DNA of 64,000 nucleotides from a virus, in the IMG/VR virus record IMGVR_UViG_3300037572_000374, positions 1 through 64,000 of that record; one strand, 5' to 3'. Below, piece after piece: positions 44,504 to 53,540 of the stretch (the first letter of the stretch is position 1; each line of letters starts with the position of its first letter). The notes below the pieces were generated by a model, which saw only the letters and a list, made by a program, of their open reading frames with translations, did no database searches and was not told the DNA's origin. Position numbers and translations under genes: made by a program.

Positions 44504-44974
44504 ATGAGTAACGCAAAGTTTACTTCATCAAAAGTATTTGATGGATTCAGTACAGTATTCAGACAACATTCAGCTGGAGATACACACTGTAGATTCTTAC
44601 ATGGATATGGTATATCTTTCAAAGTATATTTTGAAGGAGAATTAGATCATAGAAATTGGGTATGGGATTTTGGAGGAATGAAAAGAGCCAAAACCAAGAT
44701 TGATGGAATGTCAGCTAAGCAGTGGATGGACTATATGTTCGACCACACACTTGTTATGGCAATAGATGATCCAGCTTTAGAAGACTTTAAAAAGTTAGAT
44801 GATAAAGGACTTGTTCAATTAAGAATAATTCCAGCTACTGGAGCAGAGAAATTTGCAGAGTTCATTTACAATAAGTTAAATGACTTTGTAATTACAGAAA
44901 CAGAAGGAAGAGTTCGTGTAACTAAAGTTGACTTTAGAGAGCATGCTAAGAACGAAGCTTCGTTTGGAGAGTAA
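44504..44974 (+). CDS. queD: 6-carboxy-tetrahydropterin synthase (QueD-like)
   Basis: 156 aa T-fold enzyme that turns dihydroneopterin triphosphate into 6-carboxy-tetrahydropterin in the 7-deazaguanine pathway. His22 in RQHSA, Cys29 and the HCRFLHGY segment correspond to the zinc/Cys site; DFGGMK and FDHTLV are the usual later blocks. Canonical HGH is HGY here (His33, Tyr35), so one zinc ligand looks replaced. First gene of the deazaguanine cluster. Confidence 0.82.
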   Translation: MSNAKFTSSKVFDGFSTVFRQHSAGDTHCRFLHGYGISFKVYFEGELDHRNWVWDFGGMKRAKTKIDGMSAKQWMDYMFDHTLVMAIDDPALEDFKKLDDKGLVQLRIIPATGAEKFAEFIYNKLNDFVITETEGRVRVTKVDFREHAKNEASFGE

Positions 44975-44999
44975 ATAACGTAAAATAAATTATAGTATT

Positions 45000-45854
45000 A
45001 TGAGTGAATTTAAAAAAGTGAATCTATCTAAGTTGATAGTTGCTGACAGAAAAGAGCCTAAAGCTCCTGAAGTAAAACAATTGAAGAGGATTAAAGATAA
45101 AGATAAAACTTTACCAATTGCTGAGATTTATACTGCAGTACAGTCAGAAGGAAGTAGAGCAGGAATGCCTACAGTAGTAATTAGAACGACTGGATGTACA
45201 CATAGATGTTATTTCGGTGAAGGAGGATGGTGTGATTCTTGGTACACAAGTATTCATCCAGACAAGGGAAGTTATAGTTTCAATGATATCATAAAAGCAT
45301 ATGATGATAATCCACATATATCAGAAATGATGTTGACTGGAGGAAGTCCATCAATGCATAGTGCATTAGTAAATGAACTAACACACTTTGCAAATGAACG
45401 CAACATTGTAATTACAATGGAAACAGAAGGTTCTCACTTCTTAGCAACTGATTATCCAATAGGATTATTAAGTATCAGTCCTAAGTTTAGTAATTCAGTA
45501 CCAGTTTTAGGTGTAGAAACTCCTTTAGGTGCAATTACAGATGAGAGAATGATTAAGCAACACAATAAGTTGAGAATTAACACTCCAGCAATATTAGCTT
45601 CAATCGATTATCATACAGACTATCACATTAAACCAGTATGGGGTGGAAGTAATTATGAAGACTTGAAAGAGATTACTGACTATTTAGAAGAGTTAGGAGT
45701 TGAAGAGAGTAAAGTATACTTTATGCCAGCAGGAGATTCAAGAGAGTCATTACAAGTTTCATATCCTTTAGTATTTGATTGGGTAAGAGATAATGGATAC
45801 AGAATGACTTGGAGACCTCACATCATTGCATTTGAAGACCAAAGGGAAGTATAA
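45000..45854 (+). CDS. queE: 7-carboxy-7-deazaguanine synthase (QueE-like, radical SAM)
   Basis: 284 aa. VQSEGSRAGMPTVVIRTTGC is the QueE N-terminal block. The cluster motif reads C66-x3-C70-x7-C78 (GCTHRCYFGEGGWCDSWY) in place of CX3CX2C. LTGGSPS replaces TGGEP. Uses S-adenosylmethionine and an iron-sulphur cluster to convert carboxytetrahydropterin into CDG. ATG of the flavodoxin gene overlaps its stop. Confidence 0.85.
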   Translation: MSEFKKVNLSKLIVADRKEPKAPEVKQLKRIKDKDKTLPIAEIYTAVQSEGSRAGMPTVVIRTTGCTHRCYFGEGGWCDSWYTSIHPDKGSYSFNDIIKAYDDNPHISEMMLTGGSPSMHSALVNELTHFANERNIVITMETEGSHFLATDYPIGLLSISPKFSNSVPVLGVETPLGAITDERMIKQHNKLRINTPAILASIDYHTDYHIKPVWGGSNYEDLKEITDYLEELGVEESKVYFMPAGDSRESLQVSYPLVFDWVRDNGYRMTWRPHIIAFEDQREV

Positions 45855-46357
45855 TGAATATGAAATTAATATATGGATCAGATACAGGAAAGACTGAAGA
45901 GGTATGTGAAATTGTCGAGAGAGAATTTGATCGTATTGATGAAGTAGTTGAAGTGTCTGAGATGGAAGGAGATGATTGGACTAGTCATGATTTTTATATG
46001 ATTGGTCTTTCAACTTGGTACGATGGAGACTTAGTATCGGCTTGGGAAGATTACTTTGATGAATTTAAAACAAAAGATTTTAGAAATAAGACGTTTTGTT
46101 TATTTGGATTAGGAGATCAAGAGGGCTATGGAGAATATTTTATAGATGGAGTAGGAATGTTGGCTGAGGTTATTGTTGAGAATGGTGGAACAATTATTGG
46201 TAATTGGAGTACTGAAGGATATGATTACGAACAGAGCAAGGCTGAAATAAATAAAGAAATGTTTTATGGATTGGCTTTAGATGAAGACAATCAAGACGAA
46301 CTATCTGAAGAGAGAATTTCTCAATGGATTATTCAACTACAAAAAGAATTAGAATAA
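45854..46357 (+). CDS. fldA: Flavodoxin
   Basis: 167 aa. FMN phosphate loop GSDTGKTEE (residues 8-16), 50s loop GLSTWYDGDL and 90s loop FGLGDQEGYGEYF are all present, so a long-chain flavodoxin. Translationally coupled to queE; flavodoxin is the known electron donor of QueE in bacteria, so a dedicated reductant is likely. Confidence 0.9.
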   Translation: MNMKLIYGSDTGKTEEVCEIVEREFDRIDEVVEVSEMEGDDWTSHDFYMIGLSTWYDGDLVSAWEDYFDEFKTKDFRNKTFCLFGLGDQEGYGEYFIDGVGMLAEVIVENGGTIIGNWSTEGYDYEQSKAEINKEMFYGLALDEDNQDELSEERISQWIIQLQKELE

Positions 46358-46371
46358 AGCGAGAGATAAAG

Positions 46372-46400
46372 TTGCTAGATTGAAATAATTTAGTATCTTT
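46372..46400 (+). promoter_or_regulatory. Promoter for folE
   Basis: TTGC 46372-46375, 18-nt spacer, TATCTTT 46394-46400; inside the deazaguanine cluster. Confidence 0.75.
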
Positions 46401-46430
46401 ATCAAAATTATAAACTAAAAACGTAAAATT

Positions 46431-47138
46431 ATGAGTAACAAAACATTCGTAGATAACTTAGAGCTAGCTGAGGCTGGTCATGCTAATGGTATATCTACAC
46501 AATTAGAAATTGCAAGACAGACGTTTGGTCCTGAGGCTGAATTAACTGTAGAGCAAAAACAAGTGATCATCGACAATGCTGCAAAAGCATATGGAGATTT
46601 CTTAACTGCTCTTGGAGTAGATTATAAGAATGATCCTAATTCAAATGACACTCCAAATAGAGTTGCAAAAGCATATGTGAACGACTTATGGGCAGGAAGA
46701 TATAATGCAATGAGTAAGATTACTGGATTTCCATCTGATGGATATGATGGTATTGTACAAGAGTCTCACATTCCAGTAGTGTCTATGTGTTCTCACCACC
46801 ACCAAGCAATTGGAGGTTCTGTAAGTATTGCTTACATTGCATCTCTTGATGGTAAAGTAGTTGGACTTTCTAAATTAAATAGAATAGTTGAATTGTTTGG
46901 AAGAAGAGGTGCTATTCAAGAACAACTTACAGTTGCAATACATAATGCAGTAGATAAGATTTGTGAAGGTAATCAAGGAGTAGCTGTTAATATTTCTGCA
47001 ACACACAACTGTGTATCTTGTAGAGGAGTTAAACATCAGGGAGCTTCAATGCAAACTGCAAAGTTATCTGGATTCTTTAAGGATGATCCAGCAGCTAGAA
47101 ACGAATTTTATACTAACATTTCATTAAGCGCTAAATAA
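46431..47138 (+). CDS. folE: GTP cyclohydrolase I
   Basis: 235 aa. Zinc and catalytic motifs VVSMCSHHHQ (Cys120, His122-123) and ATHNCVSCRGVKH (residues 191-202), with the SKLNRIVELFGRR block between. Converts GTP to dihydroneopterin triphosphate, the first step to 7-deazaguanines. Residues 1-60 are a helical extension before the core. Confidence 0.93.
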   Translation: MSNKTFVDNLELAEAGHANGISTQLEIARQTFGPEAELTVEQKQVIIDNAAKAYGDFLTALGVDYKNDPNSNDTPNRVAKAYVNDLWAGRYNAMSKITGFPSDGYDGIVQESHIPVVSMCSHHHQAIGGSVSIAYIASLDGKVVGLSKLNRIVELFGRRGAIQEQLTVAIHNAVDKICEGNQGVAVNISATHNCVSCRGVKHQGASMQTAKLSGFFKDDPAARNEFYTNISLSAK

Positions 47139-47705
47139 ATGAACTTAAATCAATACCAAAAGCAAGCCATAACGACTAAGATATATGCTGATGAAGCTGC
47201 TCTTAGTTATTTGGCCCTTGGTTTGGGAGGGGAGTCTTCTGAACTATTCGAAAAGATAAAAGAAAGTAGAAAGGAGATCACTACTTTAGAAGGTGATAAA
47301 TTACAATTACTTGCAAAAGAGATTGGTGATGTATATTGGTACTTGGCTGGATTGGCTCAAGAGACTGATCAGAAATTAGGTGATATCTATTTTGATTACT
47401 CTAAAGATTTGCCAGTAGATAGTAAATTTGATAATGTAGTTGACATGCTAGTTGTTGAAACTGGAGCAGTATTGGAAGTATTCAAGAAGGCTTTGAGAGA
47501 TGATTACACACTATTTGTTGATAAGAAATTAGTACCAGGTAAATTTATGAAGATGAATGTAGCGATTGCTAATTTGTTAACCATATGTGAATACCTAGCT
47601 AACTTCTTTGGAGTAGAAGTAAGTACAATCTTACAGCAAAATGTAGATAAGTTAGCATCAAGAGCTAAAAGAGGAACTTTAAGTGGATCAGGAGATGTTA
47701 GATAA
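47139..47705 (+). CDS. mazG: MazG-like nucleotide pyrophosphohydrolase
   Basis: 188 aa. The metal site GGESSELFEKIK with KEIGDVYWYLA is the ExxE..ExxD pattern of all-alpha NTP pyrophosphatases. The second half (VVETGAVLEVFKKAL...) looks like a degenerate second copy, forming a one-chain pseudo-dimer. In this cluster it could remove unmodified dNTPs or by-products; that is inference. Confidence 0.8.
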   Translation: MNLNQYQKQAITTKIYADEAALSYLALGLGGESSELFEKIKESRKEITTLEGDKLQLLAKEIGDVYWYLAGLAQETDQKLGDIYFDYSKDLPVDSKFDNVVDMLVVETGAVLEVFKKALRDDYTLFVDKKLVPGKFMKMNVAIANLLTICEYLANFFGVEVSTILQQNVDKLASRAKRGTLSGSGDVR

Positions 47706-48060
47706 GGTAATTAAAACAATAGGTGTGAAGACTTCGGTAGAAGGGTTTCATGCATTCGCTAAAGCAGTTGAAATGTTTGGACAAGATGTAGATTTTCTTG
47801 CAGTAAGACATAGACATAATTTTGGTGTAGAGATGGAGATTATTGTGAATCACAATGACAGAGATCAAGAGTTTATTCTTGTTCAGAGAAGAGTGCAAAA
47901 GTATTTATATGACAAATATGGTTTTCCAGCTGAGTTTGGAAACTTGAGTTGTGAAGCTATTGCTGAAGAATTAATGAATAAGTTTAATGCAATTGTTGTA
48001 AAGGTAGATGAAGATGGAGAAAACTTTGCAAGAATTAGAAAACAAAATTATTGTTCATGA
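47695..48060 (+). CDS. Second T-fold protein, PTPS/QueD-like
   Basis: 121 aa from ATG 47695, overlapping mazG by 11 nt (the in-frame codon at 47683 is GTG). His19 in GFHAF and H39-x-H41 in RHRHNF give the three-His zinc pattern of PTPS/QueD enzymes, and GNLSCEAIAEEL corresponds to the substrate Glu block. No Cys before the HxH. A paralogue working with, or instead of, the QueD at 44504 is possible. FolX/FolB-like T-fold is the alternative. Confidence 0.55.
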   Translation: MLDKVIKTIGVKTSVEGFHAFAKAVEMFGQDVDFLAVRHRHNFGVEMEIIVNHNDRDQEFILVQRRVQKYLYDKYGFPAEFGNLSCEAIAEELMNKFNAIVVKVDEDGENFARIRKQNYCS

Positions 48061-48518
48061 GTAGAAGAGTAATATTTATTTCAGGAGAGATTTGTAGTGG
48101 AAAAGATACTATGATTGAAAATACATATTCAGGAGTTCAATATCAACAGATTGATTTAGGACAGTTAGTTAGAGAGAAGTTTCAAACAACTGAAAGGATC
48201 TTTGATAACAACTTAGAGGACTACTTTGAAGAAAGGATTAACGATATCATTAATGAGAATCAGCACATATATATTATCACTGGACTAAGACAACCTACAT
48301 TGGCAAGAAAACTTGAGAAGCTATTTGATGTTGTAGAACACAAATACTTAGTTGTGCCAAGAGATATTTTAAAAGAGAGGTATCTTAACAGAGGAGATGA
48401 GAAAGATGCTAAGATCTTATTTGAAGATGCAATTAAGGGAGATCAGTCTTTGGGTATGAAGGAATTGCAATACTATTTATTAACAGAAGTTGAATGTGAC
48501 TTCATAAAGAATTATTAA
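48057..48518 (+). CDS. P-loop nucleotide kinase
   Basis: 153 aa, start ATG 48057 overlapping the previous stop (ATGA). Walker A GEICSGKDT (residues 9-17), a lid-like region with Arg pairs, and YIITGLRQP. Adenylate/deoxynucleoside monophosphate kinase-like. Its place beside MazG and DpdA suggests handling of nucleotides for DNA modification or synthesis. Confidence 0.72.
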   Translation: MSRRVIFISGEICSGKDTMIENTYSGVQYQQIDLGQLVREKFQTTERIFDNNLEDYFEERINDIINENQHIYIITGLRQPTLARKLEKLFDVVEHKYLVVPRDILKERYLNRGDEKDAKILFEDAIKGDQSLGMKELQYYLLTEVECDFIKNY

Positions 48519-48519
48519 T

Positions 48520-49296
48520 ATGGACTTTTATGTAATACCACCTAACTCTCAGATGGAGTTAATGAAGAAAGGAGATAGATACTTTTGTTTATCTCAGATA
48601 TATTTAAGGAATGCAGAATACAGAGCATTCTTTAAAGCAAGAGTAGCTGAAGGAGCATGGGTAACACTAGACAATGGAGCTGGTGATCATGAAACTGTAA
48701 CAAAGGAACAAGTACTTGAGATAGCAAGAGAGTTGCAACCAAGTGAATTGATACCTTTAGACATACTATTCAATAGTAAAGAGACTTATAAAAATCTTTT
48801 ATGGACTATTGAAGAAATGAAAAAGGATCCATTGTTAAAAGACATTGAAGTATTTGCATGTCCACAAGGAGAAGATTTAGACTCATGGTTAGAGTTGTAT
48901 GAAACCTTATTGGGTATGCCAGAAGTAAATACAATTGGAATGAGTAAACTAGCAATACCATTTGTTATCTCTGGAGTTAAATTTGGAGATGTAGGAATTG
49001 CACAAGATAGAAACGATATGTTTAAGATCTTAAAGAATCAAGGTTTATTAGGTAAGCCTTTACATTTCTTAGGAGCTGGAGAAGCATGGGAGTTTGAATT
49101 ATATAAAGGTGAGGAGTTTGTAAGATCAACAGATAGTTGTTTTACAGTTTGGTCAGGAATGAACGATCAGAAGTTTGGTACTGAAGAGTATACAAGAATC
49201 CCAACACCACATGATTACTTTGATAGAATCATGACAGAAGAACAAATACAATTGGCTTTACATAACATAGAGTATATGGCAAAAGTCACAAGTTAA
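48520..49296 (+). CDS. dpdA: DpdA-like DNA transglycosylase (TGT fold)
   Basis: 258 aa with TGT-type TIM-barrel features: VTLDNGAGDHE (Asp51), ELIPLDILFNSKET (Asp81), FACPQGEDLDSW, TIGMSKLAIPF, LHFLGAGEAWEF and RSTDSCFTVW. DpdA-family enzymes exchange guanine in DNA for a 7-deazaguanine. Shorter than bacterial DpdA, as phage forms are. No CxC..C..H zinc site of tRNA TGT is visible, which agrees with a DNA-directed enzyme. Confidence 0.75.
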   Translation: MDFYVIPPNSQMELMKKGDRYFCLSQIYLRNAEYRAFFKARVAEGAWVTLDNGAGDHETVTKEQVLEIARELQPSELIPLDILFNSKETYKNLLWTIEEMKKDPLLKDIEVFACPQGEDLDSWLELYETLLGMPEVNTIGMSKLAIPFVISGVKFGDVGIAQDRNDMFKILKNQGLLGKPLHFLGAGEAWEFELYKGEEFVRSTDSCFTVWSGMNDQKFGTEEYTRIPTPHDYFDRIMTEEQIQLALHNIEYMAKVTS

Positions 49297-49961: not shown

Positions 49962-51515
49962 ATGAATAAGGAACAAAATAAATTATACAATTACTGTAAA
50001 GCAATGCTTCTAGATTTTACGATCGAAGGAGAATTCTTGCTTATAGATGGTAATAAGTATATGATCTTAAATGATGAAATTAATCTTATAGATGAAGATG
50101 GAGATTTTGAACCTGATTCAGTTTTTAAACTAACTGACGATGTAGATGGATTTGTATATGAATTTGGAGGAAGATTCTATACACAAAATAAAGAACAAGA
50201 TTTAACTTTAACTGAGTTAAATTATATTGGTAAAGCAAAAGAGAAATTACCAACAAAATCTTTTCTAGGAATAAGATCAGGATATGAACTTATGAATGGA
50301 ATGGGATTATATAAGTCATGGATATCAAAAGCAAAGTTCTTAGGAGCTGAGGCTTTAGGAATCTGTGAGAAGAATACTCTTGGTGGAGTGCTAAACTTTC
50401 AGAACGAATGTAAGAATGCAAACATCAAGTCAATAATTGGAATGACTATTTCTGTTGAAGGATCCAAAACATATGATGTAAAATTATATGCAAAGAACTT
50501 TCAAGGATGGTTAAACTTATTGAAGTTCAATACTATAATTAATGTAGATTTGAATTTCAGTGTTCCAATTTCAACATTAGAAAATAACAAAGAAGGATTA
50601 TTCATTGTTGCAGATCCTAAAAGTATGGATTATCACAATGTTAATGAATTAGATGTAGACTTTTATCAATTAGATACTGTAAACTTTTTGAATGCAGATA
50701 GAGATGAGAAGTACATCAATAATTTAGAGCTATTTATTACGAGCGATATTGAACCAATTAGTATTACAGATGCATTTTATTTAGAATCACAAGACTTTCA
50801 GACTAGAGAATCTTTGTGGACTATCAATAAAGCATTTGACGATAAGACTGACAATCAATATTTCAAGTCTAAGTCACAATATGCTGGTGAATTATTAACT
50901 ATGTTTGATTCACAAGATAAGAGTTGGATTGAATTGTATAAAAGAGCAATAAGTAATGAGGTAGTGTTGGTTGAGAATTGTAACTTTAGTTATGATACAG
51001 ATACAAGACACTTGCCAAGATATATAATGACTGAAGAAGAGTCTGAAAACTTTGATACAAATGAACTATTGTTCATGAATATAGTTAAGAAAGGATTTAA
51101 AGATAGAGAAGTTAAGGATGCAGAAAAATATGTAGCAAGATTAAAAAAAGAGATTGCTGTATTGAAGATGGGTGATGTAATAGATTACTTTTTAAGTCTT
51201 CATGATATTATTAGATATGCAAAAAGCAAAAAGATGTTAACTGGAATTGGTCGAGGATCAGCTGGTGGAAGTTTAGTTGCTTATTTGATGGGAATTATTC
51301 AAGTGGATCCTTTAAGATTCGATTTATTATTTGAAAGATTTTTGAATAGTGGAAGGATGGGTAAATTTGAAGAAAGACCTTCTTACATTATTGAAGCAGA
51401 TGGTGAAACTTTAGAATTTGAAGAGGGATCCTTAGTAAGAATAAAAAGAGATAGTAAAGAAACAGTTGTCTTTGTACATGAAGTTGTAGAAGGTGATGAA
51501 ATAATAAGATACTAA
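49962..51515 (+). CDS. dnaE: DNA polymerase III alpha, N-terminal half (split)
   Basis: 517 aa. Residues 1-90 are an extra domain; 90-330 is a degenerate PHP domain (SFLGIRSGYELMNGMG, with the usual metal His missing); the palm begins about residue 395 and includes TGIGRGSAGGSLVAYLMGII and DLLFERFLNSGR. The last approximately 50 residues (ADGETLEFEEGSLVRIKRD...VVEGDEIIRY) are a small beta-rich tail not part of normal DnaE. The catalytic Asp pair is not here but in the next protein. Confidence 0.88.
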   Translation: MNKEQNKLYNYCKAMLLDFTIEGEFLLIDGNKYMILNDEINLIDEDGDFEPDSVFKLTDDVDGFVYEFGGRFYTQNKEQDLTLTELNYIGKAKEKLPTKSFLGIRSGYELMNGMGLYKSWISKAKFLGAEALGICEKNTLGGVLNFQNECKNANIKSIIGMTISVEGSKTYDVKLYAKNFQGWLNLLKFNTIINVDLNFSVPISTLENNKEGLFIVADPKSMDYHNVNELDVDFYQLDTVNFLNADRDEKYINNLELFITSDIEPISITDAFYLESQDFQTRESLWTINKAFDDKTDNQYFKSKSQYAGELLTMFDSQDKSWIELYKRAISNEVVLVENCNFSYDTDTRHLPRYIMTEEESENFDTNELLFMNIVKKGFKDREVKDAEKYVARLKKEIAVLKMGDVIDYFLSLHDIIRYAKSKKMLTGIGRGSAGGSLVAYLMGIIQVDPLRFDLLFERFLNSGRMGKFEERPSYIIEADGETLEFEEGSLVRIKRDSKETVVFVHEVVEGDEIIRY

Positions 51516-51518
51516 AAT

Positions 51519-53540
51519 ATGAAAGTAACTAAGATAACACAAAACACCTCTATGAAGTTGGTAGATGGAACGCTTCCAGATATTGATACAGATTTTGCTG
51601 GTAGAAATAGAGCTGAGATTAAACAATACATGGAAGATAGATTTGGTCAAGAACAAGTGTGTTCAGTAGGATCTTATTCTACTATGAAATTGAAAGGCTT
51701 GGTAAAAGATTTTGCAAGAATATCTTCAGTTGACTTTAAAGAAGCTAATCTAATTACTTCAATAATTGATGCAGGAGATTTAACTATGTTAGATTTAATT
51801 AAAAGAGCTAGTAGTGAGCCAAGATTAAAGTCTTTCATTCAAAGGAACAGTGACATATTCTATATGTTGCCTACTTTGTTAGATCAGCCTAAGACACAAT
51901 CAATTCATCCATGTGCTGTAATTATATTCCCAAGTGTAATGAGTGCATCAGAATGGGTGCCAACAAGGTTACAACAAGGATTAGTAGTTTCAGAATGGGG
52001 AGGTAATGAAATGGATGATGCTGGATTCTTAAAGGATGATATTTTAGGTATTAAGCAATTAGATAAGTTTACAGATATCTTAGATCTCATAAAGATTAAT
52101 GATAAAGAAGTACCTAACATATATGATCTACCACACGATCCAGAAGTATTCAGATACTTTGGTAATGGATGGAATGGAGATGTGTTTCAATTAGGATCCA
52201 CTGGACTTACAGAATATAGTAAAGCACTAAAGCCTCAAAGAATTGAAGATTTAATTGCTGCAACTGCTGTATATAGACCTGGACCAATGGAGAATCACTA
52301 TCATGAGATTTATGTAAAGTGTAAGAATGAAGGTAGAGAGCCTAAATACTTATGGGGTACAGAAGAGATTGCAAAGGATACATTTGGACTTTTGATATAT
52401 CAGGAACAAGTAATGCAAGTGTTCCAATTAGTTGGAGGACTGAGTATGAAAGAAGCTGATGATGTTAGGAGAGCAATGGGTAAAAAGAAGTTATCTGCAT
52501 TGTTAAAGTGGAAAGAGAAAGTAGCTCAGGGATTCTTAGATAAAGGAGCAACACAAGCTCAGTTTGATGAAGTGTGGGTAGCAGTAATGGAGTTTGCAAA
52601 GTATGGATTCAATAAGAGTCACTCTGCTGCATATGCTATGACTGGTTATGCTTCTCAATGGTTAAAAGTTCATTATCCAATTGAATATTGGACAGTGGCT
52701 TTAGATTATGCAAATGAAGAAGATACTTTAAAGTATTTATCTGAAATTATGCAAGCCAAAGCAATTAGTGTGAAGGCTCCAGATATTAATCACTCAGCAA
52801 TGAGTATGATATCTGATCAAGAATCAAGTACAATCTTTTGGGGATTAGGATCCATCAAAGGTATTGGAGAAGATACAGCTAATCAAATTATTCAAGATAG
52901 AATTGAAAAAGGAGATTATAAGTCTTTTGCAGATTTTGTATTCAGACATAACTTCAAAGGTAGTAAAGTAAAGAAACAAACATATGAAGCACTAATTGCA
53001 TCAGGATGTTTTGATGATTTATACAATCTTGAAGGTAGAGAAGAAAGAAGACATCTGTTAATAAAGAGATATAGAAAGTATAAAAAAGTAAAGATAGCCA
53101 ATCCTAAAAGAGATGTTTATACAATAGGACAGACAGATCAAAGATGGTGGTGGTCATTACAGCAAAAGAGATTAACTGGTTTAGCATTCTTAGACTATAA
53201 AGGAATAGCAGAAGACTATGGAGTAGAATCTCAATTTGCTACATTAAGTGAAGTTAGTGGAAAGCAAGAGAAATCTATCTTTAGAAGTTTTGGTGGATAC
53301 ATAGTAGAAGCTAAAGTTGCAAGATCAGCTAAAGGTGAATATTGTAGAATAACAATAGAACATAATTACAAGTTATTTAAGATTATGGTTTGGTCAGAAG
53401 AGTTTGAAAACTTTAAGACTCAACTAAAAGGATCTGAAAAGAATCTGATAATATTTGAGGGTGAATTAAGATATGATGCCAAGTGGGCTAGAGCAAATCA
53501 GTTTACAATCAAAGAAAATTCAAAATTAATTGTTCTCTAG
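51519..53540 (+). CDS. dnaE: DNA polymerase III alpha, C-terminal half (split)
   Basis: 673 aa starting 3 nt after the N-terminal half. DGTLPDIDTDF (residues 17-27) holds the two catalytic Asp of C-family polymerases; further motifs include RPGPMENH, YQEQVMQVFQLVGG, ADDVRRAMGKKK, FNKSHSAAYA, a helix-hairpin-helix region (WGLGSIKGIGEDTANQI) and a C-terminal OB-like domain. Must associate with the upstream protein to be active. Confidence 0.9.
   Translation: MKVTKITQNTSMKLVDGTLPDIDTDFAGRNRAEIKQYMEDRFGQEQVCSVGSYSTMKLKGLVKDFARISSVDFKEANLITSIIDAGDLTMLDLIKRASSEPRLKSFIQRNSDIFYMLPTLLDQPKTQSIHPCAVIIFPSVMSASEWVPTRLQQGLVVSEWGGNEMDDAGFLKDDILGIKQLDKFTDILDLIKINDKEVPNIYDLPHDPEVFRYFGNGWNGDVFQLGSTGLTEYSKALKPQRIEDLIAATAVYRPGPMENHYHEIYVKCKNEGREPKYLWGTEEIAKDTFGLLIYQEQVMQVFQLVGGLSMKEADDVRRAMGKKKLSALLKWKEKVAQGFLDKGATQAQFDEVWVAVMEFAKYGFNKSHSAAYAMTGYASQWLKVHYPIEYWTVALDYANEEDTLKYLSEIMQAKAISVKAPDINHSAMSMISDQESSTIFWGLGSIKGIGEDTANQIIQDRIEKGDYKSFADFVFRHNFKGSKVKKQTYEALIASGCFDDLYNLEGREERRHLLIKRYRKYKKVKIANPKRDVYTIGQTDQRWWWSLQQKRLTGLAFLDYKGIAEDYGVESQFATLSEVSGKQEKSIFRSFGGYIVEAKVARSAKGEYCRITIEHNYKLFKIMVWSEEFENFKTQLKGSEKNLIIFEGELRYDAKWARANQFTIKENSKLIVL

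Follow-up and report, generated by a model that had tools for sequence, protein, structure and literature searches.

Phage clusters for 7-deazaguanine modification of DNA have been described in which FolE, QueD and QueE feed the transglycosylase DpdA; those of phages 9g, CAjan and nt-1 also include QueC or Gat-QueC (Hutinet 2019, PMC6884629). QueC converts 7-carboxy-7-deazaguanine (CDG) to preQ0 (PMC13329287). The locus considered here, at positions 44504–49296 of IMG/VR record IMGVR_UViG_3300037572_000374, resembles these clusters in encoding FolE, QueD and QueE together and in having a transglycosylase of the DpdA and tRNA-guanine transglycosylase (TGT) fold inside the cluster, but differs from them in having no QueC. 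The window analysed was bases 1–64,000 of this record, which spans 78,505 bp, and the source virus is an uncultured relative of a marine Cellulophaga phage. A second, QueD-like T-fold protein of family phrog_17812, encoded at 47683–48060, appears from the sequence comparisons to fill the place of QueC. On balance, we favour the reading that the operon serves 7-deazaguanine modification of phage DNA and that this T-fold protein acts on CDG in lieu of QueC, most likely giving 7-deazaguanine.

The absence of QueC from the window, reported in a first-pass annotation, was found to extend to the whole record, with no matches to PF06508 in 78,505 bp. The same search detected QueC in 12 of 14 control genomes. 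The locus therefore falls outside the preQ0-type subgroup, in which QueC or Gat-QueC is encoded. QueC was likewise not found in the complete genome of Cellulophaga phage phiST (Cbastvirus), which has the same gene order of QueD, QueE, FolE, MazG, phrog_17812, kinase and transglycosylase.

The distribution of QueC and the T-fold gene was then compared among virus contigs carrying relatives of the transglycosylase. In the near clade (n=11), the T-fold gene was present in 10 contigs and QueC in none, the contig lacking the T-fold gene being a 7-kb fragment; in the far clade (n=19), the T-fold gene was present in none and QueC in 11. None of the 48 T-fold-bearing virus contigs searched whole contained QueC, nor did the flanks of any of the 80 T-fold loci. 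Of the 42 T-fold loci spanning 15 kb or more, 37 contained QueE, 36 FolE and none QueC. None of the 12 named phages with a T-fold gene had a canonical QueC, and the T-fold gene was in turn absent from six QueC-bearing phages (KVP40, 9g, phi3:1, immuto, BSTP12 and Youna2). A total of 338 phage records carry QueC. The exclusion pattern holds across several phage lineages and at least two DpdA types.

Two of the named T-fold phages gave QueC-related signals far from the cluster, namely Vibrio phage D479, with a remote and partial PP-loop match, and X1, with a sub-cut-off QueC match. The D479 match was rejected as QueC, as it is confined to profile positions 133–201, is some 100 kb away from the cluster and has a degenerate motif. 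It corresponds to a 268-aa PP-loop protein of the QueC superfamily (locus L019, 1336–2142), whose gene adjoins one with a sequence suggestive of nicotinamide phosphoribosyltransferase.

The first-pass annotation had the pathway simply stopping before QueC, with CDG itself or host-completed preQ0 as the possible end products. In that form the reading was not supported, as phrog_17812 appears to take the position of the missing enzyme. Since the T-fold gene occurs with a canonical QueC in none of the records searched and the QueC-bearing relatives of the transglycosylase lack the T-fold gene, another CDG-derived base is suggested, and the likeliest product from these sequence patterns would be 7-deazaguanine formed by CDG decarboxylation, with the two earlier products less likely. 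The earlier interpretation is thus right in kind and incomplete. Completion of preQ0 by a host QueC, followed by preQ0 insertion and with some other job for the T-fold protein, is in our assessment quite unlikely. It would draw on the presence of QueC in most control bacteria, Bacteroides ihuae among them, and Cellulophaga phages of another lineage (phi3:1) do carry QueC and QueF, but it leaves unexplained why the T-fold gene is found in these clusters and never alongside a canonical QueC.

Direct insertion of CDG (dCDG), with the T-fold protein as an accessory such as a CDG carrier or a shield from host QueC, would account for a gene set that yields CDG and lacks QueC. The same product was considered for the QueC-less Mycobacterium phage Bipper (Hutinet 2019, PMC6884629). 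In Bipper, however, the T-fold family is missing too, implying that dCDG formation would not require such a protein, and the strong conservation in the T-fold protein of three His, Cys90, Glu91 and Glu110 looks catalytic; we therefore rate this explanation as rather unlikely. The base dCDG has reportedly since been detected in phages. A small gene beside dpdA in Bipper was expected to belong to the T-fold family and was rejected on search.

The phrog_17812 protein (125 aa, 47683–48060, +; phrog_17812 8e-41) had been proposed as a second T-fold protein, and profile alignment, an AlphaFold model and PDB structure matches all bear this out. The model, built from 63 sequences with a predicted local distance difference test score (pLDDT) of 91.4, matched Escherichia coli QueD and 6-pyruvoyl tetrahydropterin synthase (PTPS) first and the QueF-like archaeosine synthase later, and the family profile matched only QueD and PTPS among PDB sequences, weakly (E 0.02–0.09). 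In the alignment with QueD, the three metal-binding His of QueD and its terminal, base-anchoring Glu line up, and the residues invariant across the 63 sequences were His23, His43, His45, Glu63, Cys90, Glu91 and Glu110. Those particular to the family were His57, Arg60, Glu63 and Ser89-Cys90-Glu91. The three metal-binding His of QueD are thus present on a T-fold, but its catalytic Cys and Asp-His pair are not, the Cys position being occupied by an invariant Leu39. On these alignments, the protein would be a QueD paralogue without the catalytic Cys, Asp and His of QueD.

These features bear on whether the protein could instead be a non-canonical QueD or another pterin enzyme acting upstream of QueE. 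Its best structural matches are indeed QueD and PTPS, and six T-fold contigs have no PF01242 match. The window and 11 of the 12 named T-fold phages nevertheless encode a PF01242 protein besides it (weak and divergent in two of the 11, D479 and Ahp1), the catalytic residues are missing as above, and the exclusion of QueC would be left unexplained. We regard this explanation as improbable, and the simpler idea that phrog_17812 is just the phage QueD was rejected on the separate PF01242 protein in these 11 phages.

At least 595 candidate IMG/VR stretches encode relatives of phrog_17812, and among named phages the family is carried by unrelated ones infecting Cellulophaga, Chryseobacterium, Vibrio, Sinorhizobium, Rhizobium, Synechococcus, Pseudomonas, Aeromonas, Xanthomonas, Acidovorax and Faecalibacterium. 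In most of the named carriers FolE or QueE adjoins the T-fold gene. In Chryseobacterium phage MA9V-3 (L002, 6647–7528) and Vibrio phage Bakedbeans (L006, 11242–12393), the phrog_17812 domain is joined to an extra N-terminal domain for which no significant Pfam match was found. In Faecalibacterium phage Roos (L009, 12001–13189), the T-fold gene adjoins a weak TGT-like match; the 14 kb read gave no FolE, QueD or QueE, and the whole record no QueD or QueC, a gene set that would fit the use of CDG made by the host.

The argument that the T-fold protein acts on CDG combines its replacement of QueC, a fold that binds pterins and purines and the evidence that it is not a spare QueD. In the proposed pathway, FolE, QueD and flavodoxin-reduced QueE would make CDG from GTP, and the T-fold protein would process CDG instead of QueC, most likely by decarboxylation to 7-deazaguanine. 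The transglycosylase would then swap guanine for 7-deazaguanine, either in the phage DNA or at the level of a dG nucleotide, while MazG and the kinase-like protein would control the supply of guanine nucleotides. The replacement would affect part or all of the guanine of the phage DNA, and host nucleases would then be unable to cut it.

Several considerations weigh against this pathway. The activity on CDG is drawn from the exclusion pattern and from the pterin- and purine-binding habit of the T-fold superfamily, and the contigs behind that pattern are related and many are incomplete fragments, so that it should be read as a pattern and not as a count of independent events. The six IMG/VR T-fold contigs without a PF01242 QueD match include contigs of 256 and 182 kb. 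Decarboxylation is one among several possible reactions of CDG and leans in part on the reported prediction of DpdL, and a host QueC could divert CDG to preQ0. DpdL is reportedly a predicted CDG decarboxylase, set out with dDG and dCDG by Cui et al. in 2023, which we use as a lead only. A QueC-less pathway to dDG or dCDG, as reportedly described there, would match the present locus. We take phrog_17812 to be a candidate for DpdL, and the transglycosylase a candidate for DpdA3 of the same work, and CDG decarboxylase activity of the phrog_17812 protein is putative.

The transglycosylase (258 aa, 48520–49296, +; phrog_20335 2e-112) had no significant match in Pfam, NCBIfam or PDB sequences, and its assignment was made from structure and profile comparison. 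Its AlphaFold model (pLDDT 94.8, built from 28 sequences) matched the archaeosine TGT 1j2b best among PDB structures (Foldseek E 1.5e-7, probability 1.0), followed by Zymomonas TGT structures (E about 1e-7, probability 1.0), and its profile matched that of the deposited DpdA of Flavobacterium phage vB_FspM_immuto (hhalign 99.8%, E 9e-29). Asp51, His182, Leu184-Gly185 and Asp205 were invariant and Asp81 nearly so. The TGT-like barrel and conserved aspartates place the protein in the TGT/DpdA superfamily, with putative catalytic roles for these residues. The first-pass proposal of a TGT-like protein at this position is borne out by the 1j2b and immuto matches, and the proposal of a 7-deazaguanine DNA-modification cluster with a DpdA is supported by the gene identities and the TGT-like fold. 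The same evidence bears on the suggestion that the cluster only boosts queuosine or another tRNA modification of the host. The pathway does overlap queuosine synthesis, and such a role was proposed for phages with pathway genes and no DpdA (Hutinet 2019, PMC6884629), but the present operon encodes a TGT-fold protein with a match to a phage DpdA and lacks QueC, the enzyme of the next step, which makes this role highly improbable.

No significant match was found between the transglycosylase and the profiles of the 9g DpdA or KVP40.0122 (hhalign probability 2–3%), a comparison of low power with single sequences on one side. KVP40.0122 is inferred to be of the DpdA2 type from its position and a TGT profile match. 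At this low power, the protein did not group with the 9g-type DpdA or with DpdA2, and by sequence it would be a type separate from the 9g DpdA, possibly the one later named DpdA3. Isoelectric points gave no clear separation of the transglycosylase types. Single-protein scans of viral contigs gave no matches for the transglycosylase or the T-fold protein, whereas alignment-based scans matched for both; the QueE alignment was too diverse for scanning.

Directly between the T-fold gene and the transglycosylase lies a P-loop nucleoside monophosphate (NMP) kinase-like gene of AAA_18 type (48051–48518, +; phrog_19196 6e-17, PF13238 7e-5). In five loci (L110, L111, L112, L114 and L119), the T-fold and kinase-like proteins form a single polypeptide, which suggests that both probably act in one process. 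Kinase-like neighbours were called by a Walker-A motif rule. Of 39 non-redundant loci with a transglycosylase of the 48520–49296 type, 18 had such a gene directly next to it; the figure was 0 of 23 for canonical DpdA loci and 6% for background genes. At least four families are represented among the adjoining kinases (phrog_19196, 2107, 761 and 139), annotated as deoxynucleoside monophosphate (dNMP) or thymidylate kinases, a diversity that looks as if kinases had been repeatedly recruited. The gene beside the kinase of Phosso was tried as a transglycosylase of this type and rejected.

One possible, though unlikely, explanation of this pairing is that the transglycosylase acts on free dG nucleotides rather than on DNA. 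MazG would convert dGTP to dGMP, the transglycosylase would replace the guanine of dGMP by 7-deazaguanine and the dNMP kinase would take the first step back toward the triphosphate for the polymerase, in which case full replacement would be possible. An alternative role for the kinase would be the recycling of displaced guanine together with a phosphoribosyltransferase. A phosphoribosyltransferase gene (PF00156) is present in the same phage at record positions 64130–64534 (L005, 130–534), and one lies inside the deazaguanine clusters of immuto and Synechococcus phage BUCT-ZZ01. These genes suggest guanine salvage.

All eight genes of the operon are on the + strand and tightly packed, and the coordinates and family matches agree with the first-pass description of folE, queD, queE, flavodoxin, MazG, an NMP kinase and a second T-fold gene in one cluster. 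The first is a phage-type QueD-like 6-carboxytetrahydropterin synthase (44504–44974; PF01242, PTPS/QueD-like, 2.4e-13; phrog_2389 5.3e-39), in which Cys29, Asp80-His81, Glu115 and Glu146 are invariant in the QueD alignment. Phe and Tyr replace two of the three zinc His of E. coli QueD in this protein (HGY in place of HGH), a change also seen in several other phage QueDs. It is followed by a QueE-like radical S-adenosylmethionine (SAM) CDG synthase (45000–45854; PF04055 5.5e-8; phrog_2076 3.3e-48), for which QueE models were the best NCBIfam matches; its unusual CX3CX7C cluster motif is common to phiST. A long-chain flavodoxin (45854–46357; TIGR01752, 176.6 bits against an NCBIfam cut-off of 146.75) overlaps the end of queE and is probably the electron donor for QueE, a role known for flavodoxins with radical SAM enzymes generally. 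GTP cyclohydrolase I, FolE (46431–47138; PF01227 1.4e-43; phrog_2197 9e-62), precedes a MazG-like nucleotide pyrophosphohydrolase (47139–47705; PF03819 7e-6; phrog_229 1e-22). The overlap is 23 bp between the MazG and T-fold genes and 10 bp between the T-fold and kinase genes, and the transglycosylase gene begins 2 bp past the end of the kinase gene.

Compared with phiST, the locus differs in the flavodoxin between queE and folE, which is absent at that place in phiST. The transglycosylase and QueE are 63 and 72% identical, respectively, to those of each of the Cbastvirus phages phiST, phi19:2 and phi13:1, in whose deposited records the transglycosylase and T-fold genes are called hypothetical. 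The recurrence of the cluster in phiST, and of the transglycosylase also in phi19:2 and phi13:1, rules out chance or misassembly. The record is also close in length to phiST (79 kb) and, though not flagged as such, is probably near complete. The QueE of immuto is 75% identical to that of the window, its DpdA is of the same profile family and a thymidylate kinase-like gene lies close by; unlike the window, immuto encodes QueC and QueF together with a formyltransferase and lacks phrog_17812, from which a preQ1-type product is predicted for immuto. Downstream in the window, DNA polymerase III alpha is encoded in two open reading frames (49962–51515 and 51519–53540), split just before the PDxDxDF active-site motif. 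The same split is present and unannotated in phiST (L001, 9151–10728 and 10730–12751).

This type of system is already known, and published work on dCDG, dDG, DpdL and DpdA3 probably covers systems of this kind; the QueC/T-fold rule and the kinase pairing are added here. The recurrent pairing of transglycosylase and dNMP kinase raises the question of whether 7-deazaguanine is installed via the nucleotide pool in some phages. The proposed rule is that a phage has one or the other of QueC and the phrog_17812 T-fold protein, which predicts different bases in the DNA of the two groups. It assigns a proposed role to a gene that the phage records examined list as hypothetical and, if true, would allow the modified base to be predicted for many uncultured phages, including those behind the at least 595 IMG/VR candidate stretches.

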